This document shows, piece by piece, positions 37,466-47,512 of a stretch of DNA of 64,000 bases (positions are counted from its first letter, which is position 1; each line of letters begins with the position of its first letter). The notes under the pieces are model-generated. The model ran no database searches. It was not told the origin of the DNA and saw only the letters and a list, made by a program, of their open reading frames with translations. Both the position numbers and the translations under genes were made by a program. The stretch is from Thermococcus aggregans. Its GTDB lineage: Archaea > Methanobacteriota_B > Thermococci > Thermococcales > Thermococcaceae. The stretch spans positions 310,001 through 374,000 of the forward strand of contig NZ_CP099582.1 of NCBI RefSeq assembly GCF_024022995.1. The letters run 5' to 3'.

Positions 37466-38416
37466 ATGCTTCGAGTTGGAGTAGTCGGCGTTGGGAACAT
37501 GGGCTTCCATCATGCGAGGATTTATTCGGAATTAGCGAAAGAAGGAAAGATTGAACTCGTTGGAGTTGCTGACGCAAACTTAGAGCGAGCCAAAGAGGTT
37601 GCTTCCCAATTCAGAACAAAGGCTTTTGGAGATTACAGGGAGCTTGTAAAAGAGGGAATAGACGCCGTTAGCATTGCCGTTCCAACTTCTCTCCACAAAA
37701 AGGTTGCTCTGGAGTTTATTGAAAACGGTGTTAGCGTTTTGGTGGAGAAGCCCATTGCGGAGAGCATCGAGAGTGCCCAGGAGATAATAAGGGCTGCAAA
37801 AAAGAATGATGTCACTTTAATGGTCGGGCATGTGGAGAGGTTTAATCCGGCGGTACTAAAGCTGAAGGAGAGCATAAGCAACGGACTTCTGGGTAAGATA
37901 GTTACAATGAACGCCAAAAGGGTCGGGCCCATGGTTGTTAGGATAGCCGATGTGGGCGTAATAATTGATCTGGCCGTTCATGACATCGATGTTATGAGCT
38001 TTCTTGCGGATTCCAAGGTAAAAGAAGTGTATGCGAAAGCGAGAAATGTAAAGCATCCATCTGGAGTTGACGATTACGCTCTCATACTCTTAAGCTTTAA
38101 GCACAATGTCGATGGTATCATAGAGACCAACCGCTTAACGCCCCATAAGACGAGAACCCTAAACGTCGTGGGCACTGAGGGCATAGCTTACCTCGACTAC
38201 ATCAACCAGACGTTGCAGATATACGATGAAAAATGGGTCAGGAAGGCCAAGATTCAAAAGCAAGAGCCCTTGAGAATCGAGATTGAACACTTCATTAACT
38301 GCGTGGTCAACAAAGAGAGACCACTAGTGAGTGGAGAAGACGGGTTGCATGCACTTGAAGTTGCAGTTAAAGCCCTCGAAAGTGCAAATAAAGACGAGGT
38401 AGTAAAACTAAGGTGA
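37466..38416 (+). CDS. Gfo/Idh/MocA oxidoreductase (WbpB-like)
   Basis: A 316-aa NAD(P)-dependent dehydrogenase with the N-terminal Rossmann motif [16 protein letters not shown], the EKP motif LVEKPIAE and the catalytic region LAVHDIDVM. In the WbpA/B/E/D pathway WbpB oxidises C3 of UDP-GlcNAcA. The ATG at 37466 has AGGTGGTC upstream. A TATA-like TTTATATAT at about 37401-37409 could start a transcript carrying it and the dehydrogenase, which overlaps its stop region. Confidence 0.86.
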
Positions 38417-38421
38417 TTAAA

Positions 38422-41169
38422 ATGAAGCTTATCGGCTTAAATAGAGATGAAGTTAAGCAAGCTTTTAAAGAGGGTAAAGTTACGATAGCGGTTTACGGTC
38501 TCGGTAAGATGGGCCTTCCACTGGCGGCAGTTTTTGCGGAACATGGAGCCAATGTCATAGGCGTCGACATCAATGAAAAAGTTGTTGAAATGATAAACAA
38601 TGGAGAAAACCACATTAAAGAGGAACCCGGCCTGTCCGAGCTGGTCGAGAGGAACGTAAAGGCTGGAAGGCTAAAGGCCACGACTGATGGCGTCTGGGCT
38701 GCCAAGCAGACGGATGTTATGATTATCCTTGTCCCAACGCTAACCGATGATAGGGGCAACTTAAAGCTTGAGCCAGTTTATGATGTGGCGAGAAAGATCG
38801 CAAAAGGTCTTAAAAAGGGAGATATAGTGATTACTGAAGCAACGATGCCTCCAGGGACGACGGAGAGCTTGGTTCCGATTTTAGAGGAGAGCGGCCTCAA
38901 GCTTGGTGAGTTCGGACTAGCACATGCTCCCGAGAGGACAATGACCGGAACCGCAATTAGGGACATCACTGGCCAGTATCCTAAAATAGTAGGAGCGAGT
39001 GATGAGAAAACACTGGAAGCTGTTATCGGCATATACGAGACAATTAACAAAAAAGGCGTTATTCCGATGAGCTCCATAAAAGCTGCCGAAGCTGTTAAGG
39101 TCTTTGAAGGAGTGTACAGAGATGTCAACATTGCTTTGGCAAATGAGCTGGCATTATGGTGCGAGGAGCACGGCTTGGATGCCTTGGAAGTTTTTGAGGC
39201 AGCCAATACCCAGCCCTATTGTCACCTCCATATGCCCGGTGCCGGCGTTGGAGGCCATTGCTTTGCAAGAGATGAGTTTGTGTTCCTAGAGAAGGATGGT
39301 ATAGAGCCGTTGACTGTTGAAGAGCTCTTCGAGCTCATAGAAGGAAATCTTGAGGAGAAAGAGGGAGTTCTAATAAAAGTTCCCTCGAAAGAATACTATA
39401 TACTGTCCTTTGATCCTATTTCCAAGAGACCCATTTTTAAGAGAGTAACACTCGCCACTAAGAGAAAGCTGAAGCCTGGAGAAAGGGTTCTCGAGATAAG
39501 AACAAAAACCGGAAGACGCGTCAAGCTCACTGAGAATCATATAGTGTGGGTTTATGAGCATGGAAAGTTCGTGCAGAAACTTGCCAAAGAACTAAAACAA
39601 GGGGACAAGATGGCGATAGTTATGGAATTACCTAGCAAGGAAACTCCTGAGGTTCTTAATGTCCTGTCAATTCTCTCCAGAAATCCCCATGGCTATAGAG
39701 TAAAGTTCCCAGAGATACCTTCTGAAGCTAGAGCAATTCTTCATTCAAGCCTCGCTCCACAGTCGTACGACTACGTGAGAGATTCGTACATACCGCTCAA
39801 GTACTATGACGAGTTCAAAGGTGTACTCCCAGAGCCAAGTGCCATAGCTAGCGGCAGAGAACCTAGTTATTTAGAATTTCCTCCGAAAATTGAAATCAAT
39901 GAAGATTTTGCAACCCTTCTAGGATACTATCTCTCGGAAGGGTGCTTAACAGAAGATAGCTCCTCCAGGATAAGATTCTCGTTCAATGCTGGAGAAAGGG
40001 ATTATATAGAGGAAGTAAAGGAAATCCTAAAAAAGATTGGCATACGCTACTCGGAATATACCCAAGCCAGTGTTCATTATATCAAGGTCTCGTCAAGGGC
40101 CTTTGGAGAGCTTCTCAAATTCCTTGAAACGGGTGTAAATTCATATGACGCCAAAGTACCAGGGTTTATCTTATACAATAAAGCCCTTCAAAAAGCCATT
40201 CTTAGGGGGATAATAAACGGAGATGGAAGTGTCGTCGTATACGAAGGAAAACGTAAGATAAGAAAGGATGGTAAGGAATATACTATAGATATGATAAGCG
40301 CGACCATTGAAATTGCAACGGCAAGTGACAAACTTGCACAGCAACTCTTCCTCATGCTTCAGAATCTCGGTGTTGTTCCCTCCTACAAGAAGAACGGAAA
40401 AGTTCATATATTACGCATTTTTGGACCAGATAACCTTGAGAAGCTTAGAGAAGTTGTAAGCGGTGAGAAAAAGGAAAAGCTTGAATACTATTTGAACAAC
40501 ATAAGGAAACGTGAGAAGAGCTCAACTTTCAAACATACGGGAAGCTTTGCACTCGTTGAGGTCAAGGAAATAAAACCAGTCGAATATAATGACTATGTGT
40601 ATTCTTTCGAAGTGGAAGATACAAGCACTATCGTTACGACATCTGGCCTTATAGTTCACAACTGCATTCCTATCTACCCTTGGTTCGTCATAAATCTGGC
40701 CAAAAAGATGAATCCCAGGCTTATTAAAACTGCCAGGGAGATAAACGATTTCATGCCCTACCATGTTGTTGAGTTAACAGTTAAGGGCTTAAATGAAGTA
40801 GGAAAGCCGTTGAATGGAAGCAACGTCCTCGTGCTCGGGCTTACTTTTAGGGGCGGTGTTAGGGAGTTCACGAAGAGCCCAGCGATTCCGATTATCAAAG
40901 AGCTCAAGGGGTGGGGAGCAAAAGTTTATGCCTACGACCCGCTGTGCACTCCCGAAGATGCGAAGCGCTTTGGCGCAGAATGGAAGGAGGACTTCAAAGA
41001 CGTCGATGCAATAGTTATAGTGACTGACCACAAAGAGTTCAGGTCATTGAACCTAGAAGAAGTTGCAAAGCAAGTGAAGAGCAAAGTGATAATTGACGGC
41101 AGAAACGTTTTGGATTCCGAGAAAGCGGAAAAACTTGGGTTTGTATACTTGAGAGTTGGAAGGGTTTAG
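38422..41169 (+). CDS. UDP-sugar 6-dehydrogenase (WbpA/WecC-like) with intein
   Basis: The host protein is a UDP-N-acetylhexosamine dehydrogenase: Rossmann motif VYGLGKMGLPLA, PPGTTESLVP, HAPERTMTGTA, then GAGVGGH, the catalytic cysteine after splicing, and a C-terminal UDP-binding domain. It oxidises C6 twice to the uronic acid. The precursor is 915 aa and the spliced product would be 447 aa, normal for the family. The ATG at 38422 has AGGTGAT upstream. The intein occupies 39259-40662. With its neighbours it supports synthesis of UDP-GlcNAc3NAcA. Confidence 0.9.
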   Translation: MKLIGLNRDEVKQAFKEGKVTIAVYGLGKMGLPLAAVFAEHGANVIGVDINEKVVEMINNGENHIKEEPGLSELVERNVKAGRLKATTDGVWAAKQTDVMIILVPTLTDDRGNLKLEPVYDVARKIAKGLKKGDIVITEATMPPGTTESLVPILEESGLKLGEFGLAHAPERTMTGTAIRDITGQYPKIVGASDEKTLEAVIGIYETINKKGVIPMSSIKAAEAVKVFEGVYRDVNIALANELALWCEEHGLDALEVFEAANTQPYCHLHMPGAGVGGHCFARDEFVFLEKDGIEPLTVEELFELIEGNLEEKEGVLIKVPSKEYYILSFDPISKRPIFKRVTLATKRKLKPGERVLEIRTKTGRRVKLTENHIVWVYEHGKFVQKLAKELKQGDKMAIVMELPSKETPEVLNVLSILSRNPHGYRVKFPEIPSEARAILHSSLAPQSYDYVRDSYIPLKYYDEFKGVLPEPSAIASGREPSYLEFPPKIEINEDFATLLGYYLSEGCLTEDSSSRIRFSFNAGERDYIEEVKEILKKIGIRYSEYTQASVHYIKVSSRAFGELLKFLETGVNSYDAKVPGFILYNKALQKAILRGIINGDGSVVVYEGKRKIRKDGKEYTIDMISATIEIATASDKLAQQLFLMLQNLGVVPSYKKNGKVHILRIFGPDNLEKLREVVSGEKKEKLEYYLNNIRKREKSSTFKHTGSFALVEVKEIKPVEYNDYVYSFEVEDTSTIVTTSGLIVHNCIPIYPWFVINLAKKMNPRLIKTAREINDFMPYHVVELTVKGLNEVGKPLNGSNVLVLGLTFRGGVREFTKSPAIPIIKELKGWGAKVYAYDPLCTPEDAKRFGAEWKEDFKDVDAIVIVTDHKEFRSLNLEEVAKQVKSKVIIDGRNVLDSEKAEKLGFVYLRVGRV
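39259..40662 (+). mobile_element. Intein with LAGLIDADG-type homing endonuclease
   Basis: The 468-aa insertion starts at the Cys of CFARDEFVFL and ends with the His-Asn of LIVHN, followed by Cys of CIPIYPWF. Removal restores GVGGHCIP, the standard active-site motif. Splicing blocks are visible: N-terminal Cys, TENHIVWV (block B), EYNDYVYSFEVEDTSTIVTT (block F) and the HNC junction. The endonuclease blocks are LLGYYLSEG and LRGIINGDGSV; the first has Ser-Glu where an acidic pair is usual, so nuclease activity is uncertain. Confidence 0.93.
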
Positions 41170-41207
41170 CTCTTGTTTTATTTTTCCCAATCCTATAACG
41201 AGAGTGA

Positions 41208-41373
41208 GGGGCACCGCGTGATCAGAGGCCTCAGTGAAGTTTCGCTCTGAGGCAGGGCTCATACCTTCACCCACAAACCTCACGACTCTGGGTAAGCCGT
41301 GAGATCTATGGTTAGGTATGAACTCTGGATCAGGGTGAAGCTTTCGCTTCGGTCCCTTCTCACACAGTACCCC
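41208..41373 (-). ncRNA. Unidentified structured RNA, about 166 nt
   Basis: Read on the minus strand, the ends pair in a 14-bp stem: GGGGUACUGUGUGA (41373-41360) with UCACGCGGUGCCCC (41221-41208), including three G-U pairs. On the plus strand these would be C-A mismatches, so the minus strand is the RNA. Inside are GAAGC-GAAA-GCUUC (41350-41337, GNRA loop), CAUACCU with AGGUAUG (41320-41314 and 41266-41260), CUCACG with CGUGAG (41303-41298 and 41284-41279), and GCCUCAG with CUGAGGC (41253-41247 and 41234-41228). A TATA box lies at the right distance upstream. It is GC-rich against its surroundings. I cannot name a family; it lacks RNase P and SRP RNA signatures. Confidence 0.75.
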
Positions 41374-41396
41374 TCAATACATAATAGACTTTAAAG

Positions 41397-41404
41397 TATA
41401 TAAA
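41397..41404 (-). promoter_or_regulatory. TATA box of the structured RNA
   Basis: On the minus strand TTTATATA is preceded by CAAAC (a possible BRE). Its centre is about 26 bases before position 41374, where the first G of the RNA's terminal stem lies. Confidence 0.6.
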
Positions 41405-41660: not shown

Positions 41661-42125
41661 TTATAGTTCTTGAAGGAACTCCTCAGGCCTGAGGATCTTT
41701 ATTTTGTACTCAAGAATCTTGACTTCTTTGTTCTCATCTCTCATATCCAAGAGATCCTTGTCAAGGGTTACGATGCAATCGGCCTTAGCTTCATATGCGA
41801 TCTCCAGAAATTTGTTGTCTTTTGGGTCTCTGCAGAGGGCAACACGCGTCCTTGGGTTTACGAGAATAACTGAGCTGTTAACAAAAAGATACGTTAGAAT
41901 GAGTACTTCACTCCCGCCCTTGAGGAGCTTTGTAACCTTCTCGCTAAAAAGAACGTCATAAAGTTCATTCATCGCTTCCTCCGAGGAGTACGCTTTAAAT
42001 TTTTTGGCATACATGGCTTTCAGCACTTTTGCTGGTGCAGCTTTAGGGTCTCCAAGTACTGATGATATTATAACGCTTGTATCAACCACTGCCTTCCTGA
42101 GTTTCTTTTTCTGTTCTTCTTTCAT
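41661..42125 (-). CDS. PIN-domain toxin (COG1569-like)
   Basis: The 154-aa product has a PIN core, AVVDTSVIISSVL at the start with its aspartate, CRDPKDNKFLEIAYEAKADCIVTLDKDLL with the remaining acidic residues, and ending ILRPEEFLQEL. This matches the longer PIN group paired with ribbon-helix-helix antitoxins. The ATG at 42125 has GGGGGATG upstream inside the antitoxin's last codons (44-base overlap), so the pair is coupled. Confidence 0.85.
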   Translation of the reverse strand: MKEEQKKKLRKAVVDTSVIISSVLGDPKAAPAKVLKAMYAKKFKAYSSEEAMNELYDVLFSEKVTKLLKGGSEVLILTYLFVNSSVILVNPRTRVALCRDPKDNKFLEIAYEAKADCIVTLDKDLLDMRDENKEVKILEYKIKILRPEEFLQEL

Positions 42126-42420
42126 TGAGGACATCCCCCAGCACTTTAAGGATTTCCTCCTCAGAAAGCCGGGGGCTTGCCTTCTCCAATAGTTCAAAGT
42201 ACTTGTCAATTAATTCTGGAGTTATTTCAAGCTTGATGCTGGAGAGGTATTTTCTTACCGTCTCTTGGAGGGCATAATTAATGAAATCGCTTTTATCTTT
42301 GAAGAGCCCAAGGTCTACCAGGAGGTTAATAGCCTTGATAACGTTTTCGGGTGCCCTCACACTAACATGTACCGTGCGTTTGGTGGAGGGCTTCTTCTTT
42401 CCGGCCTTTAATACTTCCAT
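42082..42420 (-). CDS. Ribbon-helix-helix antitoxin
   Basis: A 112-aa protein from the ATG at 42420, preceded by GGTGAG. After a basic leader comes an RHH-type strand and helices: TVHVSVRAPENVIKAINLLV, then KSDFINYALQETVRKYL. The acidic C-terminal part would bind the PIN toxin that follows. It is a VapB-type antitoxin by position. Confidence 0.78.
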   Translation of the reverse strand: MEVLKAGKKKPSTKRTVHVSVRAPENVIKAINLLVDLGLFKDKSDFINYALQETVRKYLSSIKLEITPELIDKYFELLEKASPRLSEEEILKVLGDVLNERRTEKETQEGSG

Positions 42421-42583
42421 TACTCTCACCTTCCCATCTCTGTGTTACATATGTATCACAACACTATAAATAGTTTTTGGTTATTGACTTGTATAAAAAG
42501 GACTTAACTGAACAAACTGCTCCCAAAAATGAGGTGTGGAAAAAATTCTTTGAGGTCTTCTAGAGTTAATGAGGGGCTCTAAC

Positions 42584-42961
42584 TCATTTATCCTCCAACA
42601 GCTCAATGAAGGCAACGGCCCCTTTGTTTATTAGTATTCTACGGCCATCTTCGGTCTTTAAAGTGATAAAGTACGGGTCCTTGGGCACGAATAAGCCCAT
42701 AAACATGTCCCCAGTGATGAGCTTGATTTTTACCTTCTTTTCCTTAACGTTTTCTCCTTCTTCCTTGTCGCCCTTATTACCGCTTTCACGGACGTCTGCT
42801 TCTTTAGTAAAAGCTCGTTCTTTCCCAGAAGAATGATAATGAACTTCATCGGAATGATCTTGCTGAATATGGGTCTCTATAAGCTTCTTTGACATCGACT
42901 TAAACCCGCAAACCGGGCACTCCCACATGCCCGTATCCGAATCAAACCTCAGCTCTATCAT
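42584..42961 (-). CDS. C2H2 zinc finger fused to an Lsm-like domain
   Basis: The 125-aa product starts at the ATG at 42961, preceded by GAGGTG. Residues about 10-35 form a zinc finger (WECPVCGFKSMSKKLIETHI, completed by QQDH). A charged linker follows. The last 50 residues read KIKLITGDMFMGLFV then ITLKTEDGRRILINKGAVAF, which fits the two-part Sm/Lsm fold pattern (G-x-x-F-x-G, then I-x-L and D-G). An RNA-binding role is inference. It stands alone between toxin-antitoxin pairs. Confidence 0.6.
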   Translation of the reverse strand: MIELRFDSDTGMWECPVCGFKSMSKKLIETHIQQDHSDEVHYHSSGKERAFTKEADVRESGNKGDKEEGENVKEKKVKIKLITGDMFMGLFVPKDPYFITLKTEDGRRILINKGAVAFIELLEDK

Positions 42962-43051
42962 CCCAAACACCTCTCTGCCCGCTTCTGAATTATTTTTTGA
43001 TAAATAACTTGTCATAATAATGTTTTTGGCTTGAACACTAAGGCCCAAAAG

Positions 43052-43423
43052 TCAAACCTCTCTCAAAACTTTCAGGATTTCGTCAAAGATTCCTTCAACA
43101 CTTCCGGGCTCGAATTCAATGACTTTTTCAGGGCGTAGGAGAGGCAATATGTCTTCCGTGACGGTCTTCCAGGGCTCTTTCATGCTTGAAAGTACTGTTA
43201 TCGCTTTTTTATAGTCTTCTCCTTTGAATATCGCCGCCTTACTTGGCGCAACTGCAACCACAACATCAGAGTCAAGAGAATTAGCAGTTGGCGCCGCGAA
43301 GTTGTTGTAAGACTCCACAAACGTCAGCTCGTGGTTCCTCTTAATATAGCTCAAGCACTCGTCGGCCATTTTCCTGGATTCTAAAAGCAATTTGTCAACG
43401 CTCTCAACATCTAGGGGCTTCAA
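43052..43423 (-). CDS. Unknown protein, probably lacking its original N-terminus
   Basis: Up to 123 aa from a TTG; no ATG or GTG with a binding site is present. The frame stays open and protein-like upstream of the TTG (WRAGKEAERLISIVN) until it meets the PIN gene, suggesting that the true 5' end was lost or that the start codon is unusual. The visible part has ESYNNFAAPTANSLDSDVVV and VIEFEPGSVEGIFDEILKVL. No family recognised. Confidence 0.45.
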   Translation of the reverse strand: MKPLDVESVDKLLLESRKMADECLSYIKRNHELTFVESYNNFAAPTANSLDSDVVVAVAPSKAAIFKGEDYKKAITVLSSMKEPWKTVTEDILPLLRPEKVIEFEPGSVEGIFDEILKVLREV

Positions 43424-43493
43424 GTTGACTATGGAGATCAGCCTCTCAGCTTCCTTCCCCGCCCTCCAGGGAGAGGCTTGAGAAAAGAATAGG

Positions 43494-43892
43494 TTAGTGT
43501 TTTGCGAGTTTCATGAACTCTTCTGGAGTGTATACTTTGCTGTACCATTCAAAGTGCTTTTTGTTGTACGTTACTAAGGGGGCGTCGAGTTTTACTGCCA
43601 ATGCTCCAATCATGTAGTCTCTTGCATTTTTTCTAAAGTCCCATCTGCCCCAAACTGCCTTCACTGTTTCTATTGCACATTCCTTGTCAAATCCCAAAAC
43701 TTCAATCCCAATACTGCGGAATAACGTCTCAACAGCGCTTTTTCCCTCTTCAACACTCCCAAGTTTTTTAGACTGGTGGTAAAGGTACTCGGTGTAAACA
43801 ACTGCACTTGTCACTGGATAGTATGGCGAATCCTTGAGCCAAAGCAGAAACTTCCAGTTGTGGAAAACGTTTGTATCAAGGACGACCTTCAT
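43494..43892 (-). CDS. PIN-domain toxin
   Basis: This 132-aa PIN protein begins MKVVLDTNVFHNW with the first catalytic Asp. Further acidic sites are in YTEYLYHQS, NARDYMIGALAVKLDAPLVT and ending HFEWYSKVYTPEEFM. It overlaps the AbrB-like antitoxin at ATGA. It is a VapC-type ribonuclease toxin by family and context. Confidence 0.86.
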   Translation of the reverse strand: MKVVLDTNVFHNWKFLLWLKDSPYYPVTSAVVYTEYLYHQSKKLGSVEEGKSAVETLFRSIGIEVLGFDKECAIETVKAVWGRWDFRKNARDYMIGALAVKLDAPLVTYNKKHFEWYSKVYTPEEFMKLAKH

Positions 43893-46372: not shown

Positions 46373-47512
46373 ATGGTCTCCAAGCCACACGGTGGAAAGC
46401 TGATTAGGAGAATAGCCGCCCCCAAGACAAGGGATAGGATTTTGAGCGAGCAGCATGAGTATCCTTCTGTTCAAATCGACCATGGAAGGGCCATAGATTT
46501 AGAGAACATCGCCCACGGCGTTTATTCTCCTTTAAAGGGGTTTTTAACGAGGGACGATTTTGAGAGCGTTCTGCACCACATGCGCCTCAGCGACGACACC
46601 CCTTGGACGATTCCAATAGTTCTGGACGTTGAGAAGCCGGACTTTGAAGAGGGCGATGCGATTCTGCTTTACTATGAGGATATTCCAATAGCGAGGATGC
46701 ACGTTGAGGAGATATACACCTATGACAAGAAGGAATTTGCCCAGAACGTTTTCAAGACAACCGACCCAGAGCATCCTGGGGTTGCAAGGGTATATTCAAT
46801 GAAGGACTACCTCGTCGGCGGTGAGATTGAGCTCCTCAACGAGCTTCCAAATCCATTTGCCAAATACACATTGAGGCCAATCGAAACGAGGGTTCTTTTC
46901 AAGGAGCGCGGCTGGAAGACGATAGTTGCCTTCCAGACTAGAAACGTTCCCCACCTCGGCCACGAGTACGTGCAGAAGGCAGCACTAACTTTCGTCGACG
47001 GCCTCTTCATAAACCCCGTTCTGGGCAGAAAGAAGAAGGGCGACTACAAGGACGAGGTCATAATCAAAGCTTATGAGGTCCTTTTTGAGCACTACTACCC
47101 GAAGGACGCGGCCACTTTGGCCACTGTTAGGTACGAGATGCGCTACGCCGGGCCGAGGGAAGCGATCCACCACGCCATAATGAGGAAGAACTTCGGTGCA
47201 ACTCACTTCATCGTCGGAAGGGACCACGCGGGAGTTGGCGACTATTACGGGCCTTACGAGGCATGGGATCTCTTCGACGAGTTCCCGGACTTGGGAATAA
47301 CTCCAATGTTCATAAAGGAGTCCTTCTACTGCAGGAAGTGCGGCGGAATGGTCAACGCAAAGATATGCCCGCACGACAAGGAGTTCCACGTAAGAATAAG
47401 CGGCACGAAGCTTAGGAAGATGATAATGGCTGGAGAGCAGCCGCCAGAATACATGATGAGGCCTGAGGTCTTCGAAGTAATAAAGAACTTCGAGAACCCG
47501 TTTGTGGAGTGA
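46373..47512 (+). CDS. sat: ATP sulfurylase
   Basis: The 379-aa enzyme makes adenosine 5'-phosphosulfate from sulfate and ATP. QTRNVPHLGHEY is the first nucleotide-binding motif; GRDHAGVGDYYGPY and ISGTKLRKMI are further signatures. A zinc-site region CRKCGGMVNAKICPH is typical of thermophilic ATP sulfurylases. The ATG at 46373 has GGTGAT upstream. Length is normal for the archaeal single-domain form. It heads the cluster with APS kinase at 50511. Confidence 0.95.
   Translation: MVSKPHGGKLIRRIAAPKTRDRILSEQHEYPSVQIDHGRAIDLENIAHGVYSPLKGFLTRDDFESVLHHMRLSDDTPWTIPIVLDVEKPDFEEGDAILLYYEDIPIARMHVEEIYTYDKKEFAQNVFKTTDPEHPGVARVYSMKDYLVGGEIELLNELPNPFAKYTLRPIETRVLFKERGWKTIVAFQTRNVPHLGHEYVQKAALTFVDGLFINPVLGRKKKGDYKDEVIIKAYEVLFEHYYPKDAATLATVRYEMRYAGPREAIHHAIMRKNFGATHFIVGRDHAGVGDYYGPYEAWDLFDEFPDLGITPMFIKESFYCRKCGGMVNAKICPHDKEFHVRISGTKLRKMIMAGEQPPEYMMRPEVFEVIKNFENPFVE

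Follow-up and report, generated by a model that had tools for sequence, protein, structure and literature searches.

A predicted structured RNA gene associated with surface-glycan and sulfation islands in Thermococcales

In this study we describe a gene for a structured non-coding RNA on the minus strand of the window, the whole 64-kb stretch of DNA that was analysed. Judging from comparison with its homologues, we are almost certain that this is a real RNA gene, and probably a stand-alone one. It represents a new RNA class without an Rfam relative, although Thermococcales are already known to have intergenic RNAs. The RNA quite likely belongs functionally to the glycan and sulfation islands in which it is found. 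A first-pass annotation of the same DNA had already proposed a structured RNA at this site; what is new is its genomic setting, the patchiness of its distribution and its occurrence in more than one copy.

Results

Limits, fold and strand of the RNA

The coordinates of the RNA, its stems and the genes next to it are listed in Table 1. The first-pass annotation had placed the element at 41208-41404. Its actual limits are 41206-41375, so that the earlier end takes in the TATA box and the earlier start drops two bases of the terminal stem. The stem itself was present on the minus strand as described, with a length of 16 bp instead of 14 bp, and it contained exactly the three U-G pairs reported for it. 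The GNRA-capped hairpin was also recovered. The G+C content dropped from 55% inside the element to 32% in its upstream flank, and the description as a GC-rich island in AT-rich surroundings is accurate as well. Folding of the minus strand of 41208-41404 yielded -93.7 kcal/mol compared with -53.8 ± 4.2 kcal/mol for 200 shuffled sequences (z = -9.6). None of the 200 shuffles reached the native energy, which lay about 40 kcal/mol below their mean.

Table 1. Positions of the RNA, its parts and neighbouring genes (window coordinates unless a locus is named)
Feature	Position	Strand	Basis or remark
UDP-N-acetyl-mannosamine dehydrogenase type gene with intein	38413..41169	plus	NCBIfam TIGR03026, NF040825; Pfam UDPG_MGDP_dh, intein domains
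3' flank beyond P1, candidate transcription end	41191..41205	minus	U-rich in several homologues
Structured non-coding RNA gene, about 170 nt	41206..41375	minus	R1 match of 144 bits vs 41 on the opposite strand; 26-sequence covariation
P1 terminal stem, 3' arm	41206..41221	minus	read from sequence; partner 41360-41375
P4 hairpin	41229..41252	minus	shift of about 3 nt in source genus vs Thermococcus group
P3 long arm, branched, with inner hairpin	41253..41327	minus	inner hairpin covariation
P2 hairpin GAAGC-GAAA-GCUUC, GNRA loop	41337..41350	minus	most conserved stretch of the element
P1 terminal stem, 5' arm	41360..41375	minus	read from sequence; partner 41206-41221
TATA box TTTATATA	41397..41404	minus	first base 29 nt before P1
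ATP sulfurylase (Sat) gene, same island	46373..47509	plus	89% identity to Sat query; G000:C1:356373-357509
Second RNA type	9644-9797 of L077
Second RNA type	9675-9828 of L082
Second RNA type	1704-1856 of L018

The multibranch shape proposed earlier was borne out in part. The minimum free energy structure of the single sequence was rod-shaped, with the GNRA arm paired to the last hairpin, whereas comparison of the homologues favours a four-way junction formed by P1, the P2 GNRA hairpin, the branched arm P3 and P4. The P2 and P4 arms could instead pair with each other in 93% and 100% of the alignment cells; therefore, the sequences also allow a rod form or a switch.

Both the fold and the strand are supported by comparison, since compensatory changes were found in the terminal stem as well as in the central hairpin. 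Alignment A1, on which this is based, comprised 26 sequences out of 29 seeds; L008, which is closely related to others, the truncated L021 and the aberrant L030 were left out. Standard pairs occupied 91.5% of the cells compared with 83.2% after shuffling. The covariation score was 0.424 compared with 0.264 for shuffled alignments, which leave the relatedness of the sequences in place (0 of 500 reached 0.424), and dropped to 0.10-0.16 when the structure was slid. Changes on both sides occurred in 20 of 42 pairs, and the number of further pair types was no higher than in the shuffles (55 vs 55.5). The covariation evidence is carried by P1 (six of 14 alignment pairs changed on both sides, 98.1% of cells paired) and by the inner hairpin of P3 (eight of 10 pairs changed on both sides, 91.3% of cells paired). 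P4 contributed both-side changes in two of six pairs, with 76.3% of cells paired. The P2 hairpin was paired in 98.5% of cells with almost no variation and hence stands for sequence conservation, not for proof by covariation. Uncompensated changes at paired positions, named in the first-pass annotation as a finding that would speak against the RNA, were not the pattern seen in these 26 sequences.

The structure might also act on the plus strand, as the 3' untranslated region or terminator of a convergent sugar gene, or at the level of the DNA. The convergent gene usually stops a few tens of nucleotides short of the element, and the complement folds too, as seen when minus-strand loci were folded unturned. 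Against this, the covariance model R1 described below scored higher on the modelled strand than on the opposite one in 47 of 47 copies, 21 of which were outside model building. Moreover, the frequent G-U pairs are possible on the modelled strand only, and the promoter lies on the strand of the RNA. We consider a plus-strand structure highly improbable.

Promoter and 3' end

A TATA box had been noted about 26 bases before the stem; the box is present, at a distance of 29 nt. The exact sequence TTTATATA was found 29-30 nt ahead of P1 in 44 of the 47 copies, in line with the promoter of its own that had been proposed for the RNA. Conservation of the flanks of the homologues reached well upstream of the TATA box. 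An upstream promoter element, ATTTTGCNNTAAATAAAAGCAAAG (allowing up to three mismatches), occurred at five sites in four Thermococcus genomes, all five before an RNA copy, and at the same stringency it was absent from two genomes without the RNA. Beyond P1, the 3' flanks were U-rich in several genera and weakly so in the source genome, and termination just past P1 is probable.

Relatives, distribution and copy number

BLAST searches detected matches in 10 of the 13 genomes of the source genus at E ≤ 0.1 (eight full-length, one partial in G007, one short and weak in G010) and in 35 of the 94 genomes of the archaeal family at E ≤ 0.01. The covariance model R1, which was built from A1, found 47 copies in 40 of the 94 family genomes with all six genera represented; among good assemblies, 36 of 74 carried the RNA. 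No match was obtained in 21 further genomes of the phylum (total 40 of 115). Searches of more than 40 genomes ran with stricter filters and may have missed weak relatives. Homologues with compensatory changes were present in all six genera. Together with the lack of an Rfam family at gathering score, this supports the earlier suggestion of an undescribed Thermococcales RNA. We take the genus groups g3 and g4 to be Pyrococcus and Thermococcus, respectively, and genome G016, in which R1 had no match, to be P. abyssi.

Counted copies scored at least 57 bits. Fourteen further stretches were scanned with R1 at E ≤ 10, namely 12 around Sat genes in genomes that lack the RNA, the remnant site of G007 and one stretch of G005, which carries its RNA outside that stretch. 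Three matches resulted, all of at most 16.7 bits, and the G007 remnant scored highest. Searches of plasmids and viral contigs gave no match to the RNA in either. Matches to a 20-base core in Paraburkholderia and Lachnospiraceae scored 18-20 bits against the model, and we regard them as chance matches.

Each of the carrying genomes had one or two copies; the source genome had one, and two or tandem copies were found in seven genomes. In three Thermococcus genomes a second RNA type, shorter and divergent, lay in tandem directly upstream of the main copy (Table 1). It keeps the promoter and P1, and its P3 is reduced. The two RNA copies of G055 were identical (157 of 157 bases) and had different upstream regions, which suggests that selection or gene conversion acts on the RNA itself. 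For identities only, we used a separate alignment (A3) of 45 of the 47 copies, from which one exact duplicate and one truncated copy were left out. Here, the copy of G059, a g4 genome, showed a mean identity of 71% to g1 copies compared with 48% to g4 copies; being closer to g1 than to its own genus, it indicates that the RNA moves between genera. The RNA is also dispensable, as it is missing from a similar gene order in G027 and reduced to a 3' remnant in G007.

This patchy presence, together with the doubled and tandem copies, the remnant, the transfer between genera and the terminal inverted arms, would fit a non-autonomous mobile element, or a repeat, that had inserted into variable islands. 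However, no genome had more than two copies, and the many dispersed copies typical of a MITE were not found. The RNA fold is kept by compensatory changes, the promoter and its spacing are conserved, and no transposase was consistently linked in 40 gene maps. Since, besides, the identical G055 copies sit behind different upstream regions, we judge a mobile element to be quite improbable.

Glycan and sulfation islands around the RNA

A nucleotide-sugar, glycosyl-transfer or sulfate-activation gene was located within 3 kb in 39 of 40 RNA neighbourhoods and in 0 of 20 control stretches, an association which is inflated by shared descent and by transfer of whole islands. The 40 neighbourhoods represented 35 of the 40 RNA-carrying genomes and extended over 19 kb or to the contig limit; the controls were 19-kb stretches placed at even intervals in five genomes. 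Five copies (G008, G009, two in G053, G074) were outside this count and kept for the promoter and fold analyses. The initial gene clusters were single-linkage clusters that over-merge, and the test was repeated with named reference proteins. The one exception, L103, is the second copy of G093; none of the glycan genes used in the test lies within 9 kb of it.

In the 40 gene maps we found nucleotidyltransferases, NAD epimerases, an AglB-like oligosaccharyltransferase and an AglJ-type glycosyltransferase, as well as putative flippases. An operon of the island encodes ATP sulfurylase, a DHH phosphoesterase, a phosphodiesterase, APS kinase and a TauE permease. Depending on the lineage, the immediate neighbour of the RNA was a dehydrogenase, oxidoreductase, nucleotidyltransferase, epimerase, AglB or AglJ. 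Therefore, the association does not reflect one frozen gene order.

In the window, the dehydrogenase gene is convergent with the RNA, with 36 nt between the end of the gene and the 3' end of the RNA. Its intein has LAGLIDADG domains; where relatives of the dehydrogenase adjoin the RNA in other genomes, they have a length of about 450 aa and lack an intein. The nearest upstream gene, which is PIN-domain toxin-like, lies on the same strand as the RNA and ends 285 nt before it. It is one of several small, toxin-antitoxin-like genes clustered at 41661-43892 (minus strand) between the RNA and the sulfate-activation genes, with PIN domains at 41661-42209 and 43494-43892. The reading frame 42584-43048 (minus strand) encodes a protein of 154 aa that carries, besides an Hfq-related domain (PF21979, E 2.4e-8), an apparent N-terminal C2H2 zinc finger. 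This protein, 1.2 kb from the RNA, was rejected as a partner, as its cluster (c98) occurred in no other RNA neighbourhood.

The orientation of the neighbours bears on whether the RNA works in cis on glycan operons, as a leader or attenuator with an antitermination-like action. The nearest downstream gene faces the RNA in most maps, and the RNA cannot lead a convergent gene. It was co-oriented in 6 of 40 maps (L070, L076, L085, L086, L097, L103), including two with an AglJ-type glycosyltransferase (L085, L086), and the sequences keep both alternative P2/P4 pairings, which is switch-like. The U-rich 3' flank of several copies, on the other hand, also argues against a leader, and we regard this role as improbable.

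Sat was encoded in 60 of the 94 genomes, comprising 38 of the 40 with the RNA and 22 of the 54 without it. Fisher's exact test gave 1.8e-8 for this co-occurrence, and stratification by genus 5e-7 (2.9e-4 in good assemblies), values which are descriptive because the genomes are not independent. In several genomes the RNA and Sat were more than 100 kb apart, for example in G038 (RNA at 1724 kb, Sat at 1573 kb). The island also works without the RNA, given the 22 genomes that have Sat only. An AglB-like protein, by contrast, was encoded in 72 of the 94 genomes (by a count made by hand, 33 of 40 with the RNA and 39 of 54 without) and was rejected as the functional partner, as it did not discriminate between the two groups. 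Several AglB-like matches contained one stop codon (TGA, TAA or TAG), for instance G000:C1:408582-410852 and G000:C1:393489-395801; these perhaps mark only the gene end, or perhaps pseudogenes.

A pair of tRNA-Glu and tRNA-Ile genes was observed near the RNA or the island in L083, L085, L086, L094, L099, L102 and L108 and is a possible anchor for island exchange. Such anchoring would also suit a structural or housekeeping-like RNP RNA that is unrelated to glycans and rides variable islands, some of them next to these tRNAs. The strong fold, the dedicated promoter and the G059 copy with its sign of movement between genera are compatible with it. Yet housekeeping RNAs would not be missing in 54 of 94 genomes, and the co-occurrence with Sat holds within genera, even at the distance seen in G038. 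We therefore think this explanation unlikely.

Discussion

Our best explanation, held tentatively, is a trans-acting, probably protein-bound RNA that serves surface-glycan and sulfation islands. Action in trans is favoured because of the RNA's own promoter, its probable own end, the mostly convergent neighbours, the island linkage and the identical copy pair. The gene would be dedicated to accessory islands of Thermococcales for N-glycans, nucleotide sugars and sulfate activation. RNA polymerase would start at the conserved promoter, and the transcript of about 170-180 nt would adopt a closed structure, its ends held by the long G+C-rich stem. Transcription would probably halt right after P1. 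The RNA would then be bound by a protein and, in trans, tune the glycan and sulfation genes of the island. As to what it does there, regulation of the expression of these genes is our first choice, put forward with still more reserve, and an unrelated island-travelling RNP comes next. Whether it is, in full, a new archaeal class with interchangeable P2/P4 conformations that acts as a dedicated trans regulator of surface-glycan sulfation and is exchanged with the island seems doubtful to us.

The supported fold, the promoter and the clear genomic partners make the function testable by gene deletion in a tractable Thermococcus. Archaea have few structured RNAs, most of which serve housekeeping or guide functions, and to our knowledge no RNA-based control of the archaeal cell surface has been known; a dedicated trans regulator of surface-glycan sulfation would be the first. 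RNA regulation would then reach, via glycan or sulfate modification, the layer first met by archaeal viruses and the environment.

Among known RNAs, no relative was identified. An Rfam search had been suggested as a check in the first-pass annotation; Rfam 15 returned no family at gathering score anywhere in the window. At E values up to 10 only microRNA and lncRNA families appeared, far under their gathering scores, and the microRNA matches were dismissed as chance hairpin matches. In seven homologue neighbourhoods nothing was found at the RNA, and elsewhere only tRNAs and one C/D RNA. Archaeal RNase P RNA (RF00373) and SRP RNA (RF01857) are likewise large, G+C-rich and structured. In agreement with the earlier statement that signatures of both are lacking, neither matched in the window, and each has its own copy elsewhere in the source genome (637656-637972 and 1498611-1498922, respectively).

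The RNA was described in none of the literature titles and abstract beginnings, nor in the accessible text of studies of RNAs in P. abyssi, T. kodakarensis and T. onnurineus (PMC3124441, PMC4247193, PMC5316973). The accessible parts of the T. onnurineus paper mention 57 intergenic ncRNAs in its supplement, so that an unnamed prior listing is possible (PMC5316973); the RNA may already figure, uncommented, in a published transcriptome table. Orphan RNAs of P. abyssi include HgcC-G, SscA and sRk11/28/33/48/49/52, which resemble the new RNA in being intergenic, in hairpins conserved with covariation and in several cases in having their own promoter (PMC3124441, PMC4247193). Like the new RNA, sRk48/52 are also multi-copy, and the Hgc and SscA families are included in Rfam (PMC3124441, PMC4247193). 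On this reading, the new RNA with its lack of an Rfam match differs from them.

The new RNA can also be compared with RNA elements of bacterial polysaccharide operons. EAR of the eps operon and ops/JUMPstart with RfaH are leaders and exert their effect on the transcript that carries them. The new RNA differs from them in having its own promoter and in mostly facing the neighbouring gene; in the window, where the downstream gene is convergent, it does not lie in the 5' leader of a controlled operon as EAR-like or ops-like elements do. What it shares with EAR and ops/JUMPstart is that an RNA feature is tied to surface-polysaccharide clusters.
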